Shown here piece after piece: positions 17,565 through 48,159 of a DNA stretch of 60,204 nt. The notes below the pieces were generated by a model that saw only the letters and a program-made list of their open reading frames with translations, was not told the DNA's origin and searched no databases. The stretch is from the NCBI GenBank assembly GCA_026014805.1, contig JAOZHR010000032.1, forward strand, positions 1 to 60,204, in the 5' to 3' direction. The position numbers were made by a program, and so were the translations under genes. The stretch comes from Candidatus Bathyarchaeota archaeon (lineage in GTDB: Archaea > Thermoproteota > Bathyarchaeia > Bathyarchaeales > SOJC01). Position 1 is the stretch's first letter. The number at the start of each line of letters is the position of its first letter.

Positions 17565-17830
17565 GTAGGAGTATAACAAACAAAGAAGAATCCCCACGCA
17601 GAGTGGAGACATCACCCGCAACTCCCTTAATAATAGAGTCAGATGAAAATACTTTGGGAAAACTCAACGAATTTCGGCACAAAAACAGAGTGGAAGGTTA
17701 TGACTTTAGGAACTTTAAGGCAGCGTTAGTGAAACTTGGTCCAAGACTACGGAGAGGAAAACTAAACTCGTTAAAACCTGCGATAATGCTAGTTGCCTTA
17801 AAACAAAAGAAAGGTGAAGTTACAAAGTGA
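17528..17830 (+). CDS. Hypothetical protein leading the glycan operon
   Basis: Up to 100 residues ending in a TGA that overlaps the GTG/ATG of the glycosyltransferase gene. The second half (GKLNEFRHKNRVEGYDFRNF, then a basic stretch) looks like real protein. The first half is suspect, because it covers an alternating tract (17549-17563) and one copy of the dispersed GGAGA..CGCAACTCC motif (17604-17626). The true start may therefore lie downstream, near 17650. No family recognised. Coupling to the glycosyltransferase suggests a related role. Confidence 0.5.
   Translation: MYTMLAAMRTRISRSITNKEESPRRVETSPATPLIIESDENTLGKLNEFRHKNRVEGYDFRNFKAALVKLGPRLRRGKLNSLKPAIMLVALKQKKGEVTK
17549..17563. repeat. 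ATGCGCACGCGCATA tract
   Basis: Fifteen alternating bases, itself nearly palindromic (TGCGC-A-CGCGCA), at the start region of the glycan operon. Confidence 0.5.
17604..17626 (+). repeat. Dispersed GGAGA-type motif, copy 1 (diverged)
   Basis: TGGAGACATCACC followed by CGCAACTCCC. It matches the other copies at 29677, 32617 and 42399 in order and orientation, but has lost the perfect GGAGATATCTCC palindrome. Confidence 0.4.
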
Positions 17831-26464: not shown

Positions 26465-27609
26465 AACAATTGGGTGGGTGTTTCTGATTCTTTTATCGCA
26501 GTTTTGGTTAGAGCTTTTATGCTATTGAACTGTGTAAGTTCTCCATAACTGACAAGTGTTATTGCTGTTCCTTCGAGTCCCATCCTTGCCGTTCGTCCGA
26601 TTCGGTGAAAATAAACCAGCGCATCCACTGGAACGTCGTAGTTTATTATGTGTGTTATTCCATGGATATCTAAGCCTCTTGCAGCAACATCAGTTGCAAT
26701 AAGCAATTTTAGCTTGCCTTTTCTGAATAGATTGATGACGAATTCTCTCTGCCGTTGAGTGAAACCAGCGTGTAGAGGTTTTGCGTCATATCCCCGCTCC
26801 GTCAGTCTATCTGACAGCATAGTTGTGAAATTACGCGTTCTGCAGAATATTATGGCTCGTTCTATGTGGTTTGTGTCTAAAATATCCAGTAAGATTCCAA
26901 ACTTGTTCGCAGGGTTTACAACCATGTAATACTGGTCTATCTGTGTAAGAGCTATCTCGTCTTTGCTTACTAGTATCTTTTCAGGGTTCTTCATGTATCT
27001 GTTGCACAATCTCATTACTGACTGGTCTATTGTTGCCGAAAAGAGACTTGTTTGCCTCTGAGCTGGCACTTTCGAGAGTATATATTCCACGTCATCTATG
27101 AATCCCATATCAAGCATTCTATCAGCTTCGTCGAGAACGACAATTTTTACTGACGCCAGATTTAATGTTCCTCGTTTCAGATGGTCGATTACGCGACCTG
27201 GCGTACCCACAACAATGTGGACACCTTTTTCCAATGCTGATATTTGCCTTTGAATAGATGCTCCTCCATAGATGGGTAAGACTTTAAATGCTGCATACTT
27301 ACCAAATCTGCCTACATGCTCAGCAACCTGTACTGCGAGTTCACGCGTTGGCTCTAAGACCAGGCCTTGAACACTGTTAAGCCTCGGGTTCAGGCATTCA
27401 ACCATTGGAATTCCAAAAGCAGCAGTCTTGCCCGTTCCGGTCTGAGCCTGCCCAATAACATCTTTGCCTTTTAACAACGGGATTATCGCTTGGGCCTGAA
27501 TCGGAAAAAGATTATCGAATTCAAGCTCTTCAATCCCCTTCATCACTTCTGAACTCAACGGTAAATCCTTAAAGTATTCCACTTGCATACGTTTCGTTAT
27601 TCCTATCAC
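26461..27609 (-). CDS. DEAD-box RNA helicase
   Basis: 382 residues containing all main SF2 motifs: Q motif FPIQAQAI, motif I AQTGTGKT, Ia PTRELAVQ, II DEAD, III SAT, IV/V IIFCRTRNF and ATDVAARGLDI, VI HRIGRTARMG. It unwinds short RNA duplexes and is compact, with no C-terminal extension. Translationally coupled to aIF1A, so a role in mRNA or ribosome remodelling during initiation or cold adaptation is plausible. GTG 27609 or ATG 27588 may start it. Confidence 0.94.
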   Translation of the reverse strand: MIGITKRMQVEYFKDLPLSSEVMKGIEELEFDNLFPIQAQAIIPLLKGKDVIGQAQTGTGKTAAFGIPMVECLNPRLNSVQGLVLEPTRELAVQVAEHVGRFGKYAAFKVLPIYGGASIQRQISALEKGVHIVVGTPGRVIDHLKRGTLNLASVKIVVLDEADRMLDMGFIDDVEYILSKVPAQRQTSLFSATIDQSVMRLCNRYMKNPEKILVSKDEIALTQIDQYYMVVNPANKFGILLDILDTNHIERAIIFCRTRNFTTMLSDRLTERGYDAKPLHAGFTQRQREFVINLFRKGKLKLLIATDVAARGLDIHGITHIINYDVPVDALVYFHRIGRTARMGLEGTAITLVSYGELTQFNSIKALTKTAIKESETPTQLL

Positions 27610-27718
27610 AGATATTTTTCATGAGTCTTAAAAGCTTTCAAAAGCTTCTTAAATTAAGCATGAGTTAATGTGACAACTCCATTAAACCGCATCACTCTAT
27701 AAAAGAGTTTGCCAAGCG

Positions 27719-27734
27719 CGCGGGAATTCCCGCG
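27719..27734. repeat. Perfect 16-base palindrome
   Basis: CGCGGGAATTCCCGCG in the 214-base gap upstream of the helicase operon, preceded by an overlapping GCGCGCG. It is a candidate protein-binding site or cruciform. A 14-base tract (GCATGCGCGTGCAT, itself close to palindromic) follows at 27781-27794. Confidence 0.5.
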
Positions 27735-27823
27735 TATACATTGGGAAAATTCAGGTCACGGGCTTTTGACGCCGCCGGTAGCATGCGCGTGCATTTCTCT
27801 TTTCGAAGAGTTGAGCGGGTACT

Positions 27824-28216
27824 TTAGGTCATGATTATCTTAGGGCGATCTAAAGAGACTTCATAAACGGGATACTCACATCTTCTTGTAAAGCCTAGCT
27901 TTTGAGCAGCAGCGATAGAAGGTTTGTTATCCTCCCAACAGTGCCATCCAACATCAGTGATTCCACGAAGCAGTGCATAGTTAATAACAGCTGTTCCTGC
28001 CATTGTGGCTATTCCTCTCCTTCTATATTCTTTAATTGTAGCGATGCCTAATTCACAGCGGTGGCCCACATTCTACTCTGACATGCACCAACCCACGATT
28101 TCTTCGTTATGAATGACACAATGGCCGAAGCTCTTTTGTAGGAAATCTTCAACAGAGGGCCTTTCTGACTGCGTTTCTTCAATAGCATAGTTTAGGTCTC
28201 TCAGGTGATGCTGCAT
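27824..28216 (-). pseudogene. GNAT acetyltransferase, truncated and TAG-interrupted
   Basis: The C-terminal half of a GNAT-family acetyltransferase (zwittermicin-type). An in-frame TAG at 28073-28075 splits VGWCMSE from NVGHRCELGIATIKEYRRRG; family members commonly have Tyr there, one base from TAG. The rest is normal (GIATMAGTAVINYALLRGIT, HCWEDNKPSIAAAQKLGF). The upstream side begins inside a 21-base alternating tract, so the N-terminal half is missing. Non-functional unless read through. Confidence 0.65.
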
Positions 28217-28232
28217 GCATGCATACATGCAC
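28212..28232. repeat. Longest alternating tract (21 bases)
   Basis: TGCATGCATGCATACATGCAC, at the truncated beginning of the GNAT remnant and about 80 bases before the MFS start on the other strand. Confidence 0.6.
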
Positions 28233-28311
28233 CCATGGCCATTGCGCGGGCAAAGCGAATTTATGTTGGTGTTGAGTAGTTGGAGGTTTGCAAGAGCGTG
28301 GGCTGAGACTG

Positions 28312-28914
28312 ATGAGCAACCTTTTGGGTAGGATTAAAGCTGAGTTCTCTTTCATGCGAGGGAACTTGCTTACTCTAATTATCAGCTGGCTCTTTGTTTT
28401 TTTCACGTTCTCGATGACTTTCTCTTTTGAGTCCCCATTTTTTAGAGAACTAGGAGCACCCCCAGTGGTCATTGGTTTGATGGGTTCTGTTGGAGCTCTG
28501 GTGTTGGGACTAGTTCGGATTCCCGGAGCCTACATTGCTGACAAGTATGGCAGAAGGCAGATAATTGTAACGATGACTTTTGTCATCACTTTTTCCTTTA
28601 TCTTCTACGTATTCGCACCAGACTGGAGATTTATCCTCATTGGAATGATCATTTCCAACCTTAGCTTGATTTACCAACCTGCCCTAGATGCTATATTAGC
28701 GGACTCCATTCCTTCTGAAAAGCGTGGAATGGGATACGCGGCGGTTAACGTGATCCCCAACATACCAGCCATATTTGCACCAGCAGTAGCAGGCTTCTTG
28801 GTGGAAACTTACGGCATTATCCCAGGCATGCGAATAGTCTACACAGTGGTTGTCGTCTGCATGTTGGCTGCAGCCTTTGTTAGGCTGTTTTTTCTTCGAG
28901 AAACCCTTGAGTAG
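28312..28914 (+). CDS. MFS transporter, N-terminal six helices (ends at in-frame TAG)
   Basis: First half of an MFS permease: MSNLLGRIKAEFSFMRGNLL, then helices with loop 2-3 signature GAYIADKYGRRQIIV and the GYAAVNVIPNIPAIFAPAVAGFL segment. TAG 28912-28914 ends it in the central loop. The second half (28939-29553) continues in the same frame eight codons later. The intact paralogue at 46858-48159 aligns across the gap (RLKLTES..ETEKATLNDIL), so this is one gene broken by a single codon. Start is ATG 28312; an upstream TTG at 28288 is less likely. Confidence 0.8.
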   Translation: MSNLLGRIKAEFSFMRGNLLTLIISWLFVFFTFSMTFSFESPFFRELGAPPVVIGLMGSVGALVLGLVRIPGAYIADKYGRRQIIVTMTFVITFSFIFYVFAPDWRFILIGMIISNLSLIYQPALDAILADSIPSEKRGMGYAAVNVIPNIPAIFAPAVAGFLVETYGIIPGMRIVYTVVVVCMLAAAFVRLFFLRETLE

Positions 28915-28938
28915 CCTCAAAAGATCAGGCTTGAGGAG

Positions 28939-29553
28939 ATGCTTGGAGCTTCCAAGAACTCTTTAGGCGCAATAGCAGAAGCCTGGAGAGAAATGCCAAA
29001 GACCCTTAAGTTCGTAACAGTGGCGTTCCTGGTGAGCGCTTTTGAAGAACCTATGTTTCGAATGTTCACAGCCCTCTACGTATTTGACGTAATCGGAGTA
29101 AGCGAGATGCAATGGGGCATCGTAAACACTGCTTCAATTGCAGCAACACTCGTTCTAGGGTTCCCTCTCGGCAAAGTTGTTGACAAGATTGGACGGAAGA
29201 AATCCATACTCCTCGCCTACACTCTCTTCATCCCATCAACCATACTCTTCATATCTGCAAGGAATTTCCCTCTACTACTCACGGTAAATCTACTGTTCGC
29301 CATGGGAGGATGCCTAATAATGCCAGCTTACAACGCGTTGCTAGCCGACCTGATCCCTAAAGAGAAGAGAGGCAGAATTATGGGAACAATCGTAACCTTG
29401 AACATCCTAGCAACAGTTCCCGCATCGGCTCTAGGCGGGATCCTCTACGGCGTAGCCCCCACATATCCATTCATCTTAGCCATGATCCTAGGGGCCACTG
29501 TAAGCCTGCTAATACTATTCACAGTTAAAGAGCCCAAGACGAAGGAAGAGTAG
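28939..29553 (+). CDS. MFS transporter, C-terminal six helices
   Basis: Second half of the split permease, in frame with the first. It carries FPLGKVVDKIGRKKSILLAY, the second-half counterpart of the MFS signature, and LIPKEKRGRIMGTIVTLNI. It could be translated from ATG 28939 behind GAGGAG as a separate half-transporter, be joined by UAG readthrough, or be dead. Selection seems to have kept both halves free of other stops. About 414 residues if joined. Confidence 0.8.
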   Translation: MLGASKNSLGAIAEAWREMPKTLKFVTVAFLVSAFEEPMFRMFTALYVFDVIGVSEMQWGIVNTASIAATLVLGFPLGKVVDKIGRKKSILLAYTLFIPSTILFISARNFPLLLTVNLLFAMGGCLIMPAYNALLADLIPKEKRGRIMGTIVTLNILATVPASALGGILYGVAPTYPFILAMILGATVSLLILFTVKEPKTKEE

Positions 29554-29642
29554 ATATCGCAGCGCAGGAAGTAACTCCCATGACTCTTGGAACCTTCACA
29601 GAATAATTGCTCTCTCAACATGGGTCTGCGATGCTTCGAAAC

Positions 29643-29675
29643 TGATGGGCGAGAGGGATTTGAACCCTCTCCACA
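29643..29675 (-). other. tRNA 3' fragment (T-arm and acceptor strand only)
   Basis: On the minus strand GAGAGGG-TTCAAAT-CCCTCTC forms a perfect tRNA T-arm, followed by CGCCCATC as an acceptor 3' strand. I looked 150 bases upstream for the matching acceptor 5' strand (GGGCGAG-like) and found none, and no anticodon arm fits. It looks like a tRNA remnant, possibly an old attachment site. The dispersed GGAGATATC motif (29677-29708) abuts it directly. Confidence 0.45.
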
Positions 29676-29676
29676 G

Positions 29677-29708
29677 TGGAGATATCCCCCGCAAACTCCT
29701 CTTTTTTT
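29677..29708 (+). repeat. Dispersed GGAGATATC motif, copy 2
   Basis: TGGAGATATCCCC, then CGCAAACTCCTC followed by seven T. Almost identical to copy 3 (32617), and directly adjoining the tRNA fragment. Confidence 0.55.
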
Positions 29709-29800
29709 CTGTTCCTGAGCGTGGGTCGCAAGCCTTGCAGCCAAGGCTGAGTGGAGAAACCTCTTAAGGGCTCGCGCGCAGCGAAAATAGCTATTATTTG

Positions 29801-30811
29801 TCAGAAAATAGCTAGAATATGACTAACTCCTCCAGTGGCAACGCAACAAACTTTGTCAGCCGCGCCATAATAGATGAAGAGTCTATCCTCAAGCACTACC
29901 GCCCCTTCAGGGAATACCACGTTGGGAACGTCGCCAACTTTTTCATAGTCTTCCTCTGGTTCCAGGATTGGCTGTGGCAAACGACCAATAACCTTTGAAG
30001 GATCGTGCAGGTTCAACAATGCAGCGCCTGCTCTGTACTTATGGTCAGCGCTAACCCCGTGATAGATCAAGAGCCACCCTTTCTCGGTCTCTATCGGCGG
30101 CGGCCCAGTGCCTATCTTTTCTGCCTCCCACCCCCTTTCCGGCCTCATCACGATTTTGTGGGCATACCAGTCTTTGAGGTTTTCAGAATAGGCAATCCAA
30201 ATGCTTGGGTGGTCTGTGCCGTAATCAGGACCTACCCAGTCACGAGGCCTATGGAGCATCACATACTTGCCATTAATTCTTTTAGGAAAAAGCACAGTAT
30301 CCCTTTCATAAACTCCAGAAGGAGTAATGCAGCCATGTCTTCGCAAACGGCGAGGTAGACTATGTAGCTCATCCAAAGAGGATAGATCGTCTAATGAAGC
30401 TAAAGATATGCGAGGTGTGCCCCTTTCAGAAAGAATGACACGGGCTTTCTCACCGGATATGCCTAACCTGGGAAAAAGGGCTCTCGGAGGACCGCTTCGC
30501 CTGGAGTGAGCAACATACGTCATGTAAAGCTTGTTCTCAAGTATAACGGTTCGAGGGTCCTCAACCCCCTCCTTTTCATACTCTTCTACAGGCTCAAAGA
30601 CTGGATTATCTAATCGTTCAAAATTGAAACCATCCTGACTTGTTGCACAGCCGATCCTAGAAACATATCTCTCGTATTCCCCAACCGCGCGATAAAGCAG
30701 ATAGACTATGCCATTCCAATAGAAGGCGGCGGGATTGAAAACCGCTATAGATTCCCACCAGTTCTCTCCGGGTTCTAAAATGGGGTTATTCTCGTAACGT
30801 TTCAATTTCAC
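29801..30811 (-). CDS. GH130 mannoside phosphorylase/mannosidase, copy 2
   Basis: About 336 residues of GH130 beta-propeller: KLKRYENNPILEPGENWWES, LYRAVGEYERYVSRIGCATS, catalytic segment GVEDPRTVILENKLYMTYV, and GPPPIETEKGWLLIYHGVSA. Compared with copy 1 it has an insertion near SRRSGPPRALFPRLG. I choose GTG 30811 because a TATA-like ATTATAAAT lies about 27 bases upstream, which would give a leaderless message; an ATG at 30844 would overlap that promoter. Divergent from a glycosyltransferase gene, forming a second glycan locus. Confidence 0.9.
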   Translation of the reverse strand: MKLKRYENNPILEPGENWWESIAVFNPAAFYWNGIVYLLYRAVGEYERYVSRIGCATSQDGFNFERLDNPVFEPVEEYEKEGVEDPRTVILENKLYMTYVAHSRRSGPPRALFPRLGISGEKARVILSERGTPRISLASLDDLSSLDELHSLPRRLRRHGCITPSGVYERDTVLFPKRINGKYVMLHRPRDWVGPDYGTDHPSIWIAYSENLKDWYAHKIVMRPERGWEAEKIGTGPPPIETEKGWLLIYHGVSADHKYRAGAALLNLHDPSKVIGRLPQPILEPEEDYEKVGDVPNVVFPEGAVVLEDRLFIYYGAADKVCCVATGGVSHILAIF

Positions 30812-30888
30812 TTTGCGTAACCTCAGTAGATTTATAATGCGCAACTCTTTATGAGCCTATTTGTGGTAAAACATCAAGCACTGAGAAG

Positions 30889-31983
30889 ATGGATATGAAA
30901 ATAGCGATAATGTCTCCTTGGAACGACTGTTGCGGCGTATCGGTTCATGCAGAGCTTATCGGCAAGGAGTGGATGAATCAAGGGCATGAAATCGTGGTCT
31001 TTGCTCCAACTGACGAGAGGGTTGGAGGCAGGATACCCGTTGAAACCGAGGATGAGAGACTCGTTTACAGAAACTGGGAGATGTACAGATACGGGGCTAA
31101 AGTTGAGGATGAAAGCGGCTTGGATTTATACTTCGACCCGAGTCCGATTGTCAACGAGGATTATGACTTCTTCGTCCTCGAGAAGCCGTGCTTAACCCCT
31201 CTCGGGAAGCTACTCAAAATCTTCGATGTGGTAAAGCGAAAGGCGACCACGATAGCGGTTATGCACGAGGGAAGAGTTCCCCAAAATGTGAACTTCTACA
31301 AGTTTGATTGGGACGTAATCACATTGTTTGATGAACGTTACAAGAAACTTTTAGCCGACGTTATACCCACAGATAAGACACATATTGTACCCTACCCATG
31401 TCACCCAATTGTTGAAGGTAACATGCTGGAAGCCAGATCAAAGTTGGACCTTCCACAGGAGGAAGACACAAAAATCGTCCTAGCCTACGGAATACGCCTA
31501 AAAAACCTACGCGAAGTGCTTCCAATCTTCAAGGGGCTACGCAAAACATATGATGTCGTTCTATTGATGTTGACCAGCCATGAGGAGAGTGTTGGAGCTG
31601 CCAAAGATATGGGTCGCGAATACAAATTTACAATCTTTAGAAAAGAAGCCCCGCCGACAAGCAGGCTTTACACATACTTCCACGCTTCAAATGCCATCCT
31701 CGTACATAAGACTGCTGCGGACTACCTACCAACGTCAAGTACCGTCCACCTATGCTTGGGTTCAATGCGTCCTATCCTCTGCCCAGATAACAACTTCGTC
31801 GAAGTATTCGACGGAGAGGTGATGAAGTACTTAAACTTAGACGAATTGAGAGAGAGGCTCGTCGACGTTTTCGAGGGGAGAAACGTTCAATCCATCTTAA
31901 GTAACGCGAGAAAGTACATAATAAGGAACTCAGCCAGCAACATAGCGAACACCCTAATGAGGCTAGCCCGGTCAGTTAAATGA
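30889..31983 (+). CDS. GT-B glycosyltransferase, second glycan locus
   Basis: 364 residues starting MDMKIAIMSPWNDCCGVSVH, with the GT-B N-terminal pattern (AELIGKEWMNQGHEIVVFAP) and a C-terminal half beginning KIVLAYGIRLKNLREVLPIF. The classical GT4 donor motif is weak, so the family is uncertain. It is divergent from GH130 copy 2 with a 77-base shared promoter. Synthesis of the saccharide degraded by that GH130 is the simplest reading. No membrane segment; cytosolic. Confidence 0.75.
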   Translation: MDMKIAIMSPWNDCCGVSVHAELIGKEWMNQGHEIVVFAPTDERVGGRIPVETEDERLVYRNWEMYRYGAKVEDESGLDLYFDPSPIVNEDYDFFVLEKPCLTPLGKLLKIFDVVKRKATTIAVMHEGRVPQNVNFYKFDWDVITLFDERYKKLLADVIPTDKTHIVPYPCHPIVEGNMLEARSKLDLPQEEDTKIVLAYGIRLKNLREVLPIFKGLRKTYDVVLLMLTSHEESVGAAKDMGREYKFTIFRKEAPPTSRLYTYFHASNAILVHKTAADYLPTSSTVHLCLGSMRPILCPDNNFVEVFDGEVMKYLNLDELRERLVDVFEGRNVQSILSNARKYIIRNSASNIANTLMRLARSVK

Positions 31984-32056
31984 AAGCAGAACAAATTTTT
32001 TAGACTTCAAGAAAGCATAGTTGGTTCTAACATGTTTGATTGTTCTTTTTGTCAAT

Positions 32057-32072
32057 CGTGTGCATGTGTATG
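32057..32072. repeat. CGTGTGCATGTGTATG tract
   Basis: Sixteen alternating bases at the left edge of the MCM-like fragment; homology (HVYG) starts inside it. Confidence 0.5.
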
Positions 32073-32305
32073 GCTACTCTGTAGGCATATACTACTGCGG
32101 TTGGGGCCTCGTTCTTTTTATAGGAGACACAACCACAGCCAAGTCTGAAACTATTAGGAAACTTATCCGGCTGCTTGGTGGGGGTATGCTTGTCACAGGG
32201 GAAACCGCGAGCACCGTGGGCCTAACCGGCACAGCTACACAAGTTGAAAGGGAAGGCTGGTTCGTGGACTGGGGGTTTTTGCCGCTTTGTGACCGAAAAC
32301 TATTA
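32062..32305 (+). pseudogene. Fragment of an MCM-like AAA+ ATPase
   Basis: Reads HVYGYSVGIYY, then GWGLVLFIGDTTTAKSETIR with an MCM-style Walker A (GDTTTAKS), then MLVTGETASTVGLTGTATQ and EREGWFVDWGFLPLCDRKLL. In MCM-type proteins this leads directly to the Walker B segment, but here it stops at the GCATGCATGCAT tract. The N-terminal domains and part of the segment before Walker A are also missing. A chimeric open frame (32021-32356) contains it, but it cannot be a working ATPase. Confidence 0.6.
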
Positions 32306-32317
32306 GCATGCATGCAT
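32306..32317. repeat. GCATGCATGCAT tract joining two gene fragments
   Basis: The MCM-like fragment (plus strand) ends here from the left, and a membrane-protein fragment (minus strand) ends here from the right. The tract therefore marks the joint between two truncated genes. Confidence 0.6.
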
Positions 32318-32484
32318 CGAACATCGCTAACAACAATGGTGTCGCTGTCTTTTTGAACACGTGTAATTTTACAAGCACCTGCTGAAAAATTCTGTAAGAT
32401 GATTATTACTGCTATGACGACTATCACACCGATAGCTATTGGAACAAGGTTTTTCCAAATCGGTTTCCTTGGTTTCTGCTCCAC
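32318..32484 (-). pseudogene. N-terminal fragment of a signal-anchored protein
   Basis: From ATG 32484: MEQKPRKPIWKNLVPIAIGV, a transmembrane anchor (about residues 13-31), then ACKITRVQKDSDTIVVSDV. The frame enters the GCATGCATGCAT tract and then runs antisense through the MCM fragment. About 55 genuine codons. It may be the start of a lost extracytoplasmic protein; no family recognised. Confidence 0.45.
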
Positions 32485-32616
32485 CTTGCAACACCAAATC
32501 CGAGTTTAAGCATTCCAAATAAATAACACTTTCAGTGAACAACTACAGCGCGCCATGTCACAAACCATACGGGGTCAGGCAATAAGAAAGCGGGGTTGCC
32601 CTAGCCTCGTAATAAA

Positions 32617-32647
32617 TGGAGATGTCTCCCGCAAACTCCCCTTTTTT
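32617..32647 (+). repeat. Dispersed GGAGAT motif, copy 3
   Basis: TGGAGATGTCTCC, then CGCAAACTCCCC followed by six T. Just upstream, GCGGGGTTGCCCTAGCC resembles the 5' end of a tRNA, but no matching acceptor 3' strand follows. Confidence 0.55.
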
Positions 32648-32704
32648 ATGCGGCGTCCATTTGGTTTTTTGGCTTTTTCTGATGCTTTATAACTCAACAA
32701 GTAG

Positions 32705-32806
32705 ATGGCTATTGATATTGTGAACGTGCCAAATATGAAGCCTTACACGCCAGAGGATGAACAGCTGTTATACATACTGCTCGTAGGGAAGAAAGTAAAC
32801 ATGTGA
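32705..32806 (+). CDS. Possible 33-residue peptide
   Basis: ATG 32705 to TGA 32806 encodes MAIDIVNVPNMKPYTPEDEQ followed by LLYILLVGKKVNM. Composition is protein-like and may be the start of a lost gene. No motif or family. Low confidence. Confidence 0.25.
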   Translation: MAIDIVNVPNMKPYTPEDEQLLYILLVGKKVNM

Positions 32807-32826
32807 TATCGTGCATCTACACTAAA

Positions 32827-34185
32827 CTATCTTTGAGATGGTTTACTTTTCTCAGGCTCACCGGCTATAACCTCCTCTTCTATGAGCTCAACAATGAGTG
32901 TTGGCCCTTCCTTTGCCAAGATTTTTACCCTACGATTAGGCTTTATGATCGTGTCTGAACGTGCCTTCCAATACTCACCACGAAACCGAATAAACCCCAC
33001 TTTCTCCGGGCCAATCTCATCTAACGTTCGACCAATTCCACCAATAAGTTCAAGCACAGTAAGTCGCTTTTTCTTCGCCTTAACTATCTTATAAAGAACC
33101 AACGCTGAGAAACCTGTCAAAATTCCTACAAAAGCTATCACCACAACCATGAAAAACTGGTACCATTCTGGAGAAATCAGCCATCGTGTAGGATCAAATC
33201 GAAGCAAAAGCAACGTTCCTACGGATAAACAAAATATTCCAGCTGGACCAAAAAACTGGAGTCCTGGGTCTCTCATCTCCACGAATACTAAAACTCCGCC
33301 CAAAGTAATGAGTACAATAGGTAAGAGATCAACATGGAACCCCAGCCCAATTAAACCCAAGATTAAAAGGATGCCTCCTATGATTTCTCCTTCATATCCA
33401 GCGGTGAAGAAGCCAAAAATGACGCCGTAAACCCCAAGAGTGAACAAGAGATACGCGATCATAGGGTCTGAGATGACACGTAAAACCCGCACATGTATGC
33501 TTGCCCCAAAATAGTGTATCGCCGCATTTTTTGTTTGAATCGTCAATTGCCCTTTTTCCGCCACTTCCACGTCAATTCCGTCAACAACATCTAGCAGTTC
33601 TTCTAGTGTAGTCGCCACTTTTTCTATGACTCCATAGTTTTTCGCATTCTCTGCCCCTATGTTAAGGTTCTCCGTCACGAACTTGGCAACAATCGTTTCA
33701 TTTCTACCGTGCATTTTTGCTCTTTGAACAATGAACTCCGTTAGCGAATTGATTAACTTTGGATCCTGTATCAACTCTCCAGTTGGGTATGCCCGTGGAG
33801 CACAAGATCCTAGAATAGAGAACGGTGCCATCGCCACTACGTGTGATGAAAGGACGATAAAAGTGCCTGCAGACCATGCCGTTGCTCCTTTCGGATGTAC
33901 AAACGAAATCACGGGGATAGATGACCGTTCAATAAGGTCTATAATACTAAATGTTGCATCTAGCGAGCCTCCATGAGTGTTTAAAAGAAGCACCACGGCC
34001 TTAGCATTGACTTTGTAGGCTTCATCCATCCCCTCCTTAATGAGTTCTGAAGCCCCAAAGTTGATCACTCCATCTAATTCTATAACGATCACCGAATCAC
34101 TGCTGGATCCAAAAGAAGTACAAACACCCAGCCATACAGAAAAAAAGAGGATTATAACAAGTACGCGCGCGACACGTAAGCTCAT
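32827..34185 (-). CDS. NfeD-like membrane serine protease
   Basis: 452 residues: signal/anchor (about 7-27), a ClpP-like protease domain with NTHGGSLDATFSIIDLI and the nucleophile region ATAWSAGTFIVLSSHV, four or five membrane helices (about 235-370), and a C-terminal OB/NfeD domain (IGRTLDEIGPEKVGFIRFRG). In Pyrococcus the homologue cleaves the stomatin C-terminus. It is coupled by four-base overlap to the SPFH gene upstream, the classic STOPP-stomatin pair. A GTACGCGCGCG tract falls within its first codons. Confidence 0.92.
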   Translation of the reverse strand: MSLRVARVLVIILFFSVWLGVCTSFGSSSDSVIVIELDGVINFGASELIKEGMDEAYKVNAKAVVLLLNTHGGSLDATFSIIDLIERSSIPVISFVHPKGATAWSAGTFIVLSSHVVAMAPFSILGSCAPRAYPTGELIQDPKLINSLTEFIVQRAKMHGRNETIVAKFVTENLNIGAENAKNYGVIEKVATTLEELLDVVDGIDVEVAEKGQLTIQTKNAAIHYFGASIHVRVLRVISDPMIAYLLFTLGVYGVIFGFFTAGYEGEIIGGILLILGLIGLGFHVDLLPIVLITLGGVLVFVEMRDPGLQFFGPAGIFCLSVGTLLLLRFDPTRWLISPEWYQFFMVVVIAFVGILTGFSALVLYKIVKAKKKRLTVLELIGGIGRTLDEIGPEKVGFIRFRGEYWKARSDTIIKPNRRVKILAKEGPTLIVELIEEEVIAGEPEKSKPSQR

Positions 34186-34985
34186 TTCTTCTTAACCTGT
34201 TCCCCTTTCCCCGCGGTTGCGCGGGCTATGGCAACGATGTTCCCAAGTTCGCGTAAGTCAGTGGTCGAAGTAACCACTACCAGATTCTTTTCTCGTGCAA
34301 TGTCTGTCAGTGTTTGGAGCTCTCGCAACTTTAATGTGATCGGGCTTTTGCTGTAGATTTCTGCGGCCTGCGCCATCTTCTCCGCTGCGATATATTCTCC
34401 CTCAGCCACGATTATCCTGGCTCTCTTCTCTCTCTCAGCCTCTGCTTGCTTTGCAATTGCCCTCTGCATTTCCGCCGGAAGTAGGACATCGCTGATGGCT
34501 ACCGCGCTCACTTTTATACCCCACGGGTCGGTAATTTCATCTATTTCCTCCTGAATCTGCCTTGTGAACTCTGTCGTTTTTATCAACAGGTCATCAAGCT
34601 CCGCGTGACCTAAGACATCCCGTAACACGGTCTTTGCTAACGTTTGAGTGGCATGAACGTAATTCTCTACCTCGCAGATCGCCTTTACGGGATCGATCAC
34701 TCGATAATACACAAACGAGTCTACATCGCACCGTATGTTATCCCTCGTAATTATTTTTATCATGCGTGCATCGTATGTTATGGTTCTTAAATCCACTACG
34801 CGTGTTCTGTCGATTCCTGGTATAATGAAAATCAATCCTGGACCCTTGGCACCGACGAGTCGACCTAAGCGGAAAATAACTGCTCTCTCATATTCTCTCA
34901 CGATTCTAATCGAAGACGTCAGGATGGATAAGACAATTATCACGAGAACAAACAAAGCAAGGATTTCATATATCAAAGGAATCAC
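34182..34985 (-). CDS. SPFH/band 7 (stomatin-like) membrane protein
   Basis: 267 residues with an N-terminal membrane segment (about 5-24), the band-7 core IVREYERAVIFRLGRLVGAK and KGPGLIFIIPGIDRTRVVDL, and an Ala/Glu-rich coiled coil (KQAEAEREKRARIIVAEGE). These proteins assemble into membrane cages that regulate proteases and channels. Overlaps the NfeD gene by ATGA, so both are made together and probably interact. Confidence 0.94.
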   Translation of the reverse strand: MIPLIYEILALFVLVIIVLSILTSSIRIVREYERAVIFRLGRLVGAKGPGLIFIIPGIDRTRVVDLRTITYDARMIKIITRDNIRCDVDSFVYYRVIDPVKAICEVENYVHATQTLAKTVLRDVLGHAELDDLLIKTTEFTRQIQEEIDEITDPWGIKVSAVAISDVLLPAEMQRAIAKQAEAEREKRARIIVAEGEYIAAEKMAQAAEIYSKSPITLKLRELQTLTDIAREKNLVVVTSTTDLRELGNIVAIARATAGKGEQVKKK

Positions 34986-35117
34986 TGAAAAACCATTGAA
35001 AGATGCCCATTAATAAATGTATATCTCAAGTCCCCCTTCTCCTCCTCAGCACACCCTCCAAAGGAGCCACGAAGGCAAAAAAACTGCTTTCATGGTGAAA
35101 ATCAATTCTGAGAAATG

Positions 35118-35153
35118 AGCTGCTAGAAAGAGCGCGCGCGCATGACAGCAGCT
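35118..35153. repeat. Stem-loop presenting a GCGCGCGCGCATG tract
   Basis: AGCTGCT (35118-35124) and AGCAGCT (35147-35153) form a perfect seven-base stem. The 22-base loop contains the thirteen-base alternating tract 35132-35144. This is the only tract I see enclosed by its own stem. Confidence 0.45.
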
Positions 35154-35221
35154 TGGAATTATTGAGCGGATAGAAAAATTACGACTGCTGGAGTAGGGGA
35201 ATATTGTTCTAACATTGATTT

Positions 35222-35758
35222 TTAGATTAATAATTGGATGTAGTCTGCTATGAAATGAGCGATTATGGCTCCTAATATGGCGAGTAGAGCATATTTTAGT
35301 CCTTCTTTGTAGGGTTTTTCATGGCTTATTTTGCCTACGTAGCTTCCTAGAATGAATGCCATTATGGTTCCGATTACGAATGTAAGTATTGTAGCTTGGT
35401 TTATGGGGAGAACTATGAATGGGGATAGTAGAACTAGCACAGCGGCGATTGTTGATGTGAATGCAAAGAGGGTGTTTGCGAGGATCTCCTTCTTGGAATG
35501 TATTCTTGTTATTGATCCATGGTCTGTCGTTGCATGAATTTGCAATGCTCTTTCCGCTGATTGAGACATGAAGAACCCGATGGAATTTCCAAATGCGTTA
35601 GCAAAGCCACCGATTATTCCAGTAATTATCACAAACCGAGTGGAGGAAGTAACCTCAACAATCCCTATTATCAGACCTAAACACATAATCAAACCATCAG
35701 CAAGCCCAAAGGCGATTCCTTCTAAACGATAGCTTTCCTTTGATGATTCTTCAGTCAT
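35222..35758 (-). CDS. VIT1/CCC1-family Fe/Mn transporter
   Basis: 178 residues from ATG 35758 (MTEESSKESYRLEGIAFGLA); a start at 35797 would add thirteen. Five helices with the conserved DGLIMCLGLIIGIVE and GGFANAFGNSIGFFMSQSAE segments of the CCC1/VIT family, which exports or stores iron or manganese. The cytoplasmic metal-binding loop (HATTDHGSITRIHSKKE) is short. Could complement the FeoAB uptake system at 56 kb. Confidence 0.85.
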   Translation of the reverse strand: MTEESSKESYRLEGIAFGLADGLIMCLGLIIGIVEVTSSTRFVIITGIIGGFANAFGNSIGFFMSQSAERALQIHATTDHGSITRIHSKKEILANTLFAFTSTIAAVLVLLSPFIVLPINQATILTFVIGTIMAFILGSYVGKISHEKPYKEGLKYALLAILGAIIAHFIADYIQLLI

Positions 35759-37916: not shown

Positions 37917-38345
37917 CTATTCGTGGTCCCACCGTTTGGTGACCCTTACTATGATGAAGACTACGAAGGCTACGATGATGAAGGTTATCAGCGCTGCCAA
38001 GAATTCTCCTACGCCGAAAAGCTGGCCAACATAGTTTGGGTCTATTGGGGTCCCCTGGCTATCCAATTCTGTCGATGGAACTGGTATTTTGAATGTGGCG
38101 AGATTTCCAAGGCCGGGTACAGCGAGGCCTATTACGGGCATTACTAAGCCTGTTACAAGTGCTTGGACAAGGGCACCGAGATAAACACCCATGATAAAGG
38201 CGACAGCAAGGCCCATGACTTTGTACTTTGAAAGGAAGTCCCTGAATTCATTCCACATGCCTTCCTTTGGTGGCGGGGATGGCGTCGGCGTCAACAATTC
38301 ACGAATCTTTGTAAGCTCCTTCAACATTTTATCTTCTTTCGTCAA
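37917..38345 (-). CDS. mscL: Large-conductance mechanosensitive channel MscL
   Basis: 142 residues. After a Pro-rich N-terminal stretch (LLTPTPSPPPKEG) comes the MscL core: FRDFLSKYKVMGLAVAFIMG (helix 1), a periplasmic-side loop, and LAALITFIIVAFVVFIIVRV (helix 2). It opens under membrane tension to release solutes on osmotic downshock. The Pro-rich leader is longer than usual. Confidence 0.88.
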   Translation of the reverse strand: MTKEDKMLKELTKIRELLTPTPSPPPKEGMWNEFRDFLSKYKVMGLAVAFIMGVYLGALVQALVTGLVMPVIGLAVPGLGNLATFKIPVPSTELDSQGTPIDPNYVGQLFGVGEFLAALITFIIVAFVVFIIVRVTKRWDHE

Positions 38346-42398: not shown

Positions 42399-42420
42399 TG
42401 GAGATATCTCCCGAAGTCCG
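42399..42420 (+). repeat. Dispersed GGAGATATCTCC motif, copy 4
   Basis: Contains the perfect twelve-base palindrome GGAGATATCTCC followed by CGAAGTCC. The sequence after it (TTGGCTTCTTGGCGTTTCTGA) resembles the sequence after copy 3 (TTTTTTGGCTTTTTCTGA). Confidence 0.55.
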
Positions 42421-46857: not shown

Positions 46858-48159
46858 CTGATGAGATTCACCGAAAATCTCAAGGAACAGTTCCCGTTCA
46901 TCAAGGGAAATTATTTGATACTCATAATAAGCTGGATTCTAATGGATTTTGCAGGTGAACTGCCGGGAACTTACTATCCGGATTATGTGATCCAACTTGG
47001 CGGAAGTGCCACAATTATAGGATTGATCTCTCTTGTTTCGATGTTGTGTCTAGCTTCTGTTCAACTCCCCGGAGGCTATTTGGCTGACAAGTATGGTAGG
47101 CGTTGGTTAGTCTCAACAATGACATTTGGGGTAGCTTTTTCGTACATTTTCTACGCAGTAGCACCAACTTGGCACTTCATTTTGATTGGAGCCGCAATAC
47201 AAAACCTTTGTCTGATTTATCAACCAGCACTGATGGCGACGATGGCAGATTCCTTGCCGCCAGAAAAGCGAGGAATGGGATTCTCTATTCTAAATCTTAT
47301 AATGAGTGTTGCAACGACTCCGGCTCCGTTAGTGGCTCTCTTCTTGATATCAACCTACGGCTCAGAGACTGGCATGCGAATAGCGTACACCATTGTCACG
47401 ATATTCTTTATTGTTGCAGCGATTGTGCGGCTAAAATTAACTGAGAGCATGAAAGAAACTGAAAAGGCCACTCTAAATGACATACTACACTCCTATCCGG
47501 AATCTCTAAGACAAGGATTAAGCGTTTGGAAAGCAGTGCCACGTTCAACATTGTTCTTGTTCTTCTCCACCATTATCATGCGTGCAGCATTTGCAATGGT
47601 GATGGGGCTCTTCTTGGTCTACGGGTTCTATGTTCTTCAAATAGGGGGAGCCCCGCAACCACAGATTTTCACACTTGCGATGGATCCCGCTCTCCAAAAC
47701 GCGCGCGTTCTCTGGGGTTATGTTATGATCGCTGTATTTCTAGCGATGATAGTTATGTCGTTACCTGTAGGAAAGCTGCTCGATAAGGCTGGCAGAAAAA
47801 TCCCGTTAATAATGTCCGGTCTCCTGATGATCCCCTCCATTTTGCTTTTCATTTATGGGAATTACATCACCCTTTTCATAGCAATGCCCCTTCTCGGACT
47901 CGCCCAACTTCTAGGTTTCTCAGCTTATCAAAGCTTGTTTGCAGATCTTGTCCCCCAAGCACAGAGAGGAAAAGTCACAGGCTCAATGCACTTCTTCACC
48001 TACATATTCATGGCTTTTGGAGGACTTGCTGGCGGGCTCTTGTACGACAATGTATCCCCGCAAATCCCCTTTCTAATCATGCTCATCCTAATCATCCTGT
48101 CAATTCTCATAACGATCTTTCGCATTAAAGAACCCCAACCTGAAGAAAGAGAAGCCTAG
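46858..48159 (+). CDS. MFS transporter, intact paralogue of the split one
   Basis: About 434 residues from ATG 46858 or 46864; longer frames from 46756 include an alternating tract and look non-coding. Twelve helices; signatures GGYLADKYGRRWLVSTMTF and LPVGKLLDKAGRKIPLIMSG. The inter-domain loop (KETEKATLNDILHSYPESLR) is complete here, whereas the paralogue at 28312-29553 carries a TAG at that place. Substrate unknown. A second tract (48163-48179) follows the stop. Confidence 0.9.
   Translation: MMRFTENLKEQFPFIKGNYLILIISWILMDFAGELPGTYYPDYVIQLGGSATIIGLISLVSMLCLASVQLPGGYLADKYGRRWLVSTMTFGVAFSYIFYAVAPTWHFILIGAAIQNLCLIYQPALMATMADSLPPEKRGMGFSILNLIMSVATTPAPLVALFLISTYGSETGMRIAYTIVTIFFIVAAIVRLKLTESMKETEKATLNDILHSYPESLRQGLSVWKAVPRSTLFLFFSTIIMRAAFAMVMGLFLVYGFYVLQIGGAPQPQIFTLAMDPALQNARVLWGYVMIAVFLAMIVMSLPVGKLLDKAGRKIPLIMSGLLMIPSILLFIYGNYITLFIAMPLLGLAQLLGFSAYQSLFADLVPQAQRGKVTGSMHFFTYIFMAFGGLAGGLLYDNVSPQIPFLIMLILIILSILITIFRIKEPQPEEREA

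Follow-up and report, generated by a model that had tools for sequence, protein, structure and literature searches.

A probable recent nonsense mutation in the TM6-TM7 linker of an MFS transporter gene lying in a decaying segment of a Candidatus Bathyarchaeota genome

An MFS transporter gene of a Candidatus Bathyarchaeota archaeon is interrupted by a single in-frame TAG, which is probably a recent single-base nonsense mutation in the linker between TM6 and TM7, in a gene that belongs to a decaying segment. The window analysed here is the whole of contig JAOZHR010000032.1 (60,204 nucleotides, assembly GCA_026014805.1), contig 32 of a 1.79-Mb genome in 32 contigs with a completeness of 96.55% and a contamination of 0.87%. 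The nearest named relatives by the MFS protein are Candidatus Bathyarchaeota MAGs. The initial annotation, made from the letters alone, had singled out this codon and offered a fresh nonsense mutation, UAG readthrough (including pyrrolysine) or translation as two half-transporters as its explanations. The features on which the analysis rests are the following.

28312-29553, plus strand: reading frame of an MFS transporter with a single break; 414 codons if the internal TAG and the final stop are included
28312-28911, plus strand: N-terminal half of the transporter, helices 1-6, 200 codons, MFS_1 match of 74.4 bits
28912-28914, plus strand: premature TAG; the same-genus genome G008 has CAG, and 17/17 distinct near relatives covering the codon have a sense codon
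28933-28938, plus strand: GAGGAG, abutting ATG 28939, at the wrong spacing for a Shine-Dalgarno motif here
28939-29553, plus strand: C-terminal half as an open reading frame of its own, 204 aa, MFS_1 match of 89.5 bits, final stop TAG
29455-29460, plus strand: run of C; one extra C in G008 shifts the frame of the last 30 codons
28252-28311, plus strand: upstream stretch, with a segment GCGAATTTATGTTGGTGTTGAG like that of relative L068 (compared by eye)
27824-28216, minus strand: remnant of a GNAT acetyltransferase (PF12746), divergent neighbour, matching profile positions 148-243 of 243 only
28073-28075, minus strand: in-frame TAG of the GNAT remnant, at a position that is Cys in six aligned relatives
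27886-28883, no strand: stretch absent from G008, taking in the 5' half of the MFS gene and the greater part of the GNAT remnant
46876-48159, plus strand: intact MFS paralogue used for comparison, with GAA at the site (L030)

The frame, whose start was placed at ATG 28312 by alignment with relatives, is that of a 12-helix MFS transporter, and the internal TAG falls at query residue 201. As the initial annotation had it, this codon is the sole stop from 28312 until the natural one, TAG at 29551-29553 (TAA in G008), and the two halves are open in one frame: each of them alone matches PF07690 (MFS_1) far above the cut-off of 33.4 bits. The paralogue was also correctly said to align across the TAG; it does so over 46876-48147 at 39% identity. 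There is no second lesion in the gene, and the promoter region does not look scrambled, since segment GCGAATTTATGTTGGTGTTGAG resembles its counterpart in L068. With the TM6-TM7 linker bounded, by our choice, at residues 196-232, 18 of the 117 single-base changes that would create a stop in the gene lie in the linker, as do five of the 17 nonsense sites of the transition type; it is thus unremarkable that the TAG hit the central loop.

The initial annotation had proposed examining the codon in close relatives, and this comparison speaks for a fresh nonsense mutation. We inspected 31 loci at the site, duplicates and paralogues included; 30 carry a sense codon and the remaining one, L079, stops short of the site. 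Six of the 31 repeat genomes already represented (L004/L069, L006/L072, L007/L071, L008/L077, L009/L074 and L016/L076, called as duplicates because codon, identity and contig agree), and a further seven are paralogues of 35-37% identity. When these were left out together with L079, 17 distinct near relatives remained, every one with a sense codon, which is the pattern of stop versus sense that a nonsense pseudogene should display. The codons at the site are CAG, AAA, AAG, AAT, AAC, CAT, ACC, ACT, ACG, TGT, GAC and GAA, and among the 17 near relatives they specify eight different residues (Q, K, N, H, T, C, D and E), so that the TAG occupies a variable linker position. In G008 the codon is CAG, within an otherwise colinear 825-bp match of 96.5% identity. 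Judged by G008, the TAG would most simply have arisen by a C-to-T transition, CAG to TAG. Searches by protein (13 family genomes and the GTDB species genomes) and by DNA (162 genomes of the order) returned no conspecific strain covering the TAG besides the window.

The neighbourhood of the gene is decaying. Intact GNAT relatives are about 390 aa long, and the copy in the window is truncated at its N terminus. It also contains an in-frame TAG, a second one near the MFS gene that the initial annotation had missed; the Cys found in 6/6 aligned GNAT relatives lies two steps from TAG. In G008, where 27886-28883 is missing, the junction holds a short filler, ATGCATGC, and the 3' half of the MFS gene is retained as an open frame of 224 aa. 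The best MFS copy of genome G002 (74% identity) is frameshifted near its 5' end and contains stops, a second copy (66%) being intact. Of the 13 family genomes, at least three have therefore lost the MFS gene or carry it in damaged form; it is open over its full length in G003, G004, G006, G009 and G010, at 76-80% identity. This decay in several genomes, along with the CAG of G008, supports the fresh-mutation option of the initial annotation.

At the deletion junction of G008 (C25, 488-497), the filler ATGCATGC resembles a ATGCATGCATACATGC run near 28215 (window 28211-28232), a likeness that suggests more than one deletion step.

We also compared substitution patterns. Over 28885-29454, the window and G008 differ by 11 synonymous and 4 non-synonymous changes (dS 0.082, dN 0.0095, ratio 0.116); over 28939-29553, they differ by 13 synonymous and 3 non-synonymous changes, and the resulting dN/dS of 0.074 is the third lowest of 20 ORFs compared with G008 (range 0.058 to 3.85). 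These ratios cover the 3' half alone, G008 being without the 5' half, and average over the entire period since the two genomes diverged. With three outgroups as reference, neither half changes faster than in eight relatives; the N half is 67-91% identical to 12 relatives and the C half 64-77%. Thus, the relaxed selection expected of a nonsense pseudogene (dN/dS near 1) was not seen, the values for the 3' half against G008 being 0.07-0.12. A low dN/dS is expected if the mutation is young, and it bounds the age of the break more than its class; since it fits a young mutation and a gene still in use equally, we counted it for neither. A further comparison came from a 3132-bp contig, G011:C54 (= L011/L079), which is 99.58% identical to window 28936-32067 and shows two differences in the MFS 3' half, both at third positions and synonymous (codons read by us). 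This contig is uninformative on the TAG because it starts at 28936, 22 nt past it, and it is probably misbinned because the genome that holds it belongs to another genus.

The upper end of the dN/dS range belongs to a 142-aa ORF at 37917-38345 on the minus strand, with 1 synonymous and 12 non-synonymous changes (dN/dS 3.85); either it is not a real gene in that frame or it is fast-evolving.

The sequence of events that we favor is as follows. A C-to-T transition would have turned CAG into TAG in the variable TM6-TM7 linker. Translation would stop at the TAG and leave a six-helix N-terminal fragment, and the 12-helix transporter would therefore be lost. The mutation would have struck a short segment that appears to be on its way out of the genus, the GNAT gene being truncated and carrying a TAG here, and both genes being deleted or frameshifted in G008. 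It would be young, as suggested by the low dN/dS of the 3' half, the unexceptional rates of both halves and the single lesion. The TAG, the sense codons of the relatives, the lack of PylS, PylB and PylD in the searches made and the decay around the gene are observed; the direction of the mutation, the loss of function and the recency are what we infer. The case resembles a nonsense pseudogene of the MFS_1 (PF07690) type in its one premature stop, the sense codons of its relatives and its decaying neighbourhood, and differs from an older one in that the rest of the sequence is free of other lesions, as at an early stage. Belinky et al. 2021 (PMC7918605) describe in-frame stops with low dN/dS in prokaryotic genes, a CAG/TAG case included, as widespread in bacteria, and expect most of them to be short-lived. 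Their cases share with ours the alternation of CAG and TAG at one site and the purifying selection around it; theirs, however, are common to several genomes, whereas ours is in a single assembly.

That the gene still works after the stop, by co-assembly of six-helix halves made through termination and restart or by low-level UAG readthrough at a tolerant linker residue, is distinctly unlikely. Such a reading is still allowed by the low dN/dS of the 3' half, by the C-terminal half staying open in G008 and by the absence of any further lesion. A low dN/dS would also be expected of a gene working through halves or readthrough and to that extent counts against a broken gene, as do the 224-aa frame of G008 and the synonymous nature of both differences in G011:C54. 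Neither half-transporters nor chance readthrough gained positive support. As to the halves in particular, the break falls in a linker, a place that could in principle bear a split; the two halves are both open and both conserved, G008 too keeps an open C-terminal half, and ATG 28939 lies 24 nt after the stop. The GAGGAG that the initial annotation had seen before this ATG is indeed there, but it directly abuts the ATG. In 45 ORFs of at least 150 aa in the window, Shine-Dalgarno-like motifs upstream of the called starts peak at 6-10 nt (21 motif-position counts; the starts are the first possible ones, so the true spacing may be sharper), and motifs at that distance before internal ATGs sum to 2.9% of 281. 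By our reading the spacing is 0-2 nt at ATG 28939 and 4 nt at the alternative ATG 28993. We therefore rejected a restart at GAGGAG-ATG 28939 on its spacing of 0-2 nt versus 6-10 nt, and a motif at the wrong distance takes away the chief support for half-transporters. In G008, where a sense codon stands upstream, the same ATG follows a similar stretch of purines, GGAGAG; the stretch is therefore coding sequence rather than a newly gained site. The intact relatives are unsplit, and in G008 the N half is gone and the final 30 codons are altered; a conserved two-part arrangement thus does not exist. Five of the 17 transition-type nonsense changes would in any case land in the linker. PMC3464245 describes natural splits of membrane proteins as known but rare. 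The likeness to those cases lies in a break between two membrane halves, and the difference in that our gene has no start at the spacing of its genome and no conserved two-part form. Our literature search on MFS half-transporters gave, among the matches listed, no natural MFS case; one on the halves of lactose permease, a transporter that is functional when its two halves are expressed separately, returned no papers. We hold separately made halves, restarted at ATG 28939 or 28993 and assembling into a working transporter, to be very improbable; if they were real and working, this would be a natural MFS protein split by one point mutation and caught early.

Decoding of the UAG as a residue, by pyrrolysine or another suppressor tRNA, is exceedingly improbable. 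The class does include the trait, since PMC9723677 reports a Pyl cluster in one Bathyarchaeota genome, JdFR-11, and two adjoining genes, MFS and GNAT, each carry one in-frame TAG. In the present genome, however, profile searches for the pyl genes, which the initial annotation had suggested, gave no match to PylS_Nterm or PylD, and matches far below the cut-off for PylS_Cterm (26 bits versus 178.15) and PylB (45 bits versus 348.2). The latter two are paralogues, as found likewise in most control genomes; Methanosarcina acetivorans, the positive control, passes in each of these searches. PylD exceeded its cut-off in 0/162 genomes of the order, with weak matches below it in 94. The anticodon CUA was present in none of the 41 RF00005 tRNA matches (38 anticodons assigned by ARAGORN with introns allowed, and three by eye: L089 Leu, L095 Glu and L097 Pro), a list from which several expected isoacceptors (Tyr and His among them) are missing, with 13 of 163 candidates unscored, and in which a tRNA-Pyl may score low. 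The claim that UAG is an ordinary stop elsewhere in the window held: in 51 non-overlapping ORFs of at least 120 aa it is the commonest stop (TAG 21, both MFS TAGs counted; TAA 16; TGA 14). The median open run past the stop is 11 codons for TAG, 17.5 for TAA and 9.5 for TGA, and the MFS break, with 212 codons open after it, is an outlier. Where TAG-ended ORFs could be aligned to G008, eight have TAG there as well, while the MFS gene has TAA as its final stop and CAG internally. Recoding would leave the truncation of the GNAT copy unexplained, the residue at the MFS site is free to vary from one relative to another, and a TAG-containing neighbour is not to be read as a sign of pyrrolysine use. 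We thus rejected pyrrolysine and global UAG recoding, because this genome failed the searches for both domains of PylS and for PylB and PylD, and 162 genomes of the order failed that for PylD. Two of the three findings that the initial annotation named as refuting recoding were made: none of the pyl genes searched for turned up, and the sister genome G008 has a sense codon. Set beside archaeal pyrrolysine decoding as described in PMC9723677, the gene is alike in that its in-frame UAG occurs in an archaeon whose class includes one reported Pyl cluster, and unlike in that PylS, PylB and PylD were not found and the site is not conserved. The main technical rival is that the TAG arose as an error of sequencing or assembly, or else belongs to a minor strain of the metagenome. 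One C-to-T change would suffice, the window comes from a draft assembly of 32 contigs, and the near-identical G011:C54 ends 22 nt from the TAG, as can happen where strains differ. Against this, the neighbouring GNAT gene and the sister genome G008 carry independent lesions, so a lesion in the MFS gene is unsurprising, and we consider an artefact or variant unlikely. On the preferred reading, a recent nonsense mutation, the two half-transporters that gene callers will report (28288-28914 and 28939-29553) would be pieces of one broken gene, which is a caution for annotation.

Downstream of the MFS gene, G008 also lacks window 29708-32616, which contains a gene of the glycoside hydrolase 130 family (29801-30844, minus strand) and an ORF without a Pfam match (30889-31983). 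A dispersed element with the core TGGAGATATCNCCCGCAA is present in the window at 29677-29694, 32617-32634, 17604-17621 and 42399-42416. The core often has a C-rich stretch and a T run behind it, and some copies are preceded by a tRNA T-arm-like GGGATTTGAACCC. An Rfam search of 27000-35500 gave no match. With up to two mismatches the element has 31 matches in the genome versus 0 for the reversed pattern, and with up to three it has four in the window versus 0.15 expected. Two of the copies flank the 2.9-kb segment 29708-32616, and recombination between them may have removed it in G008.
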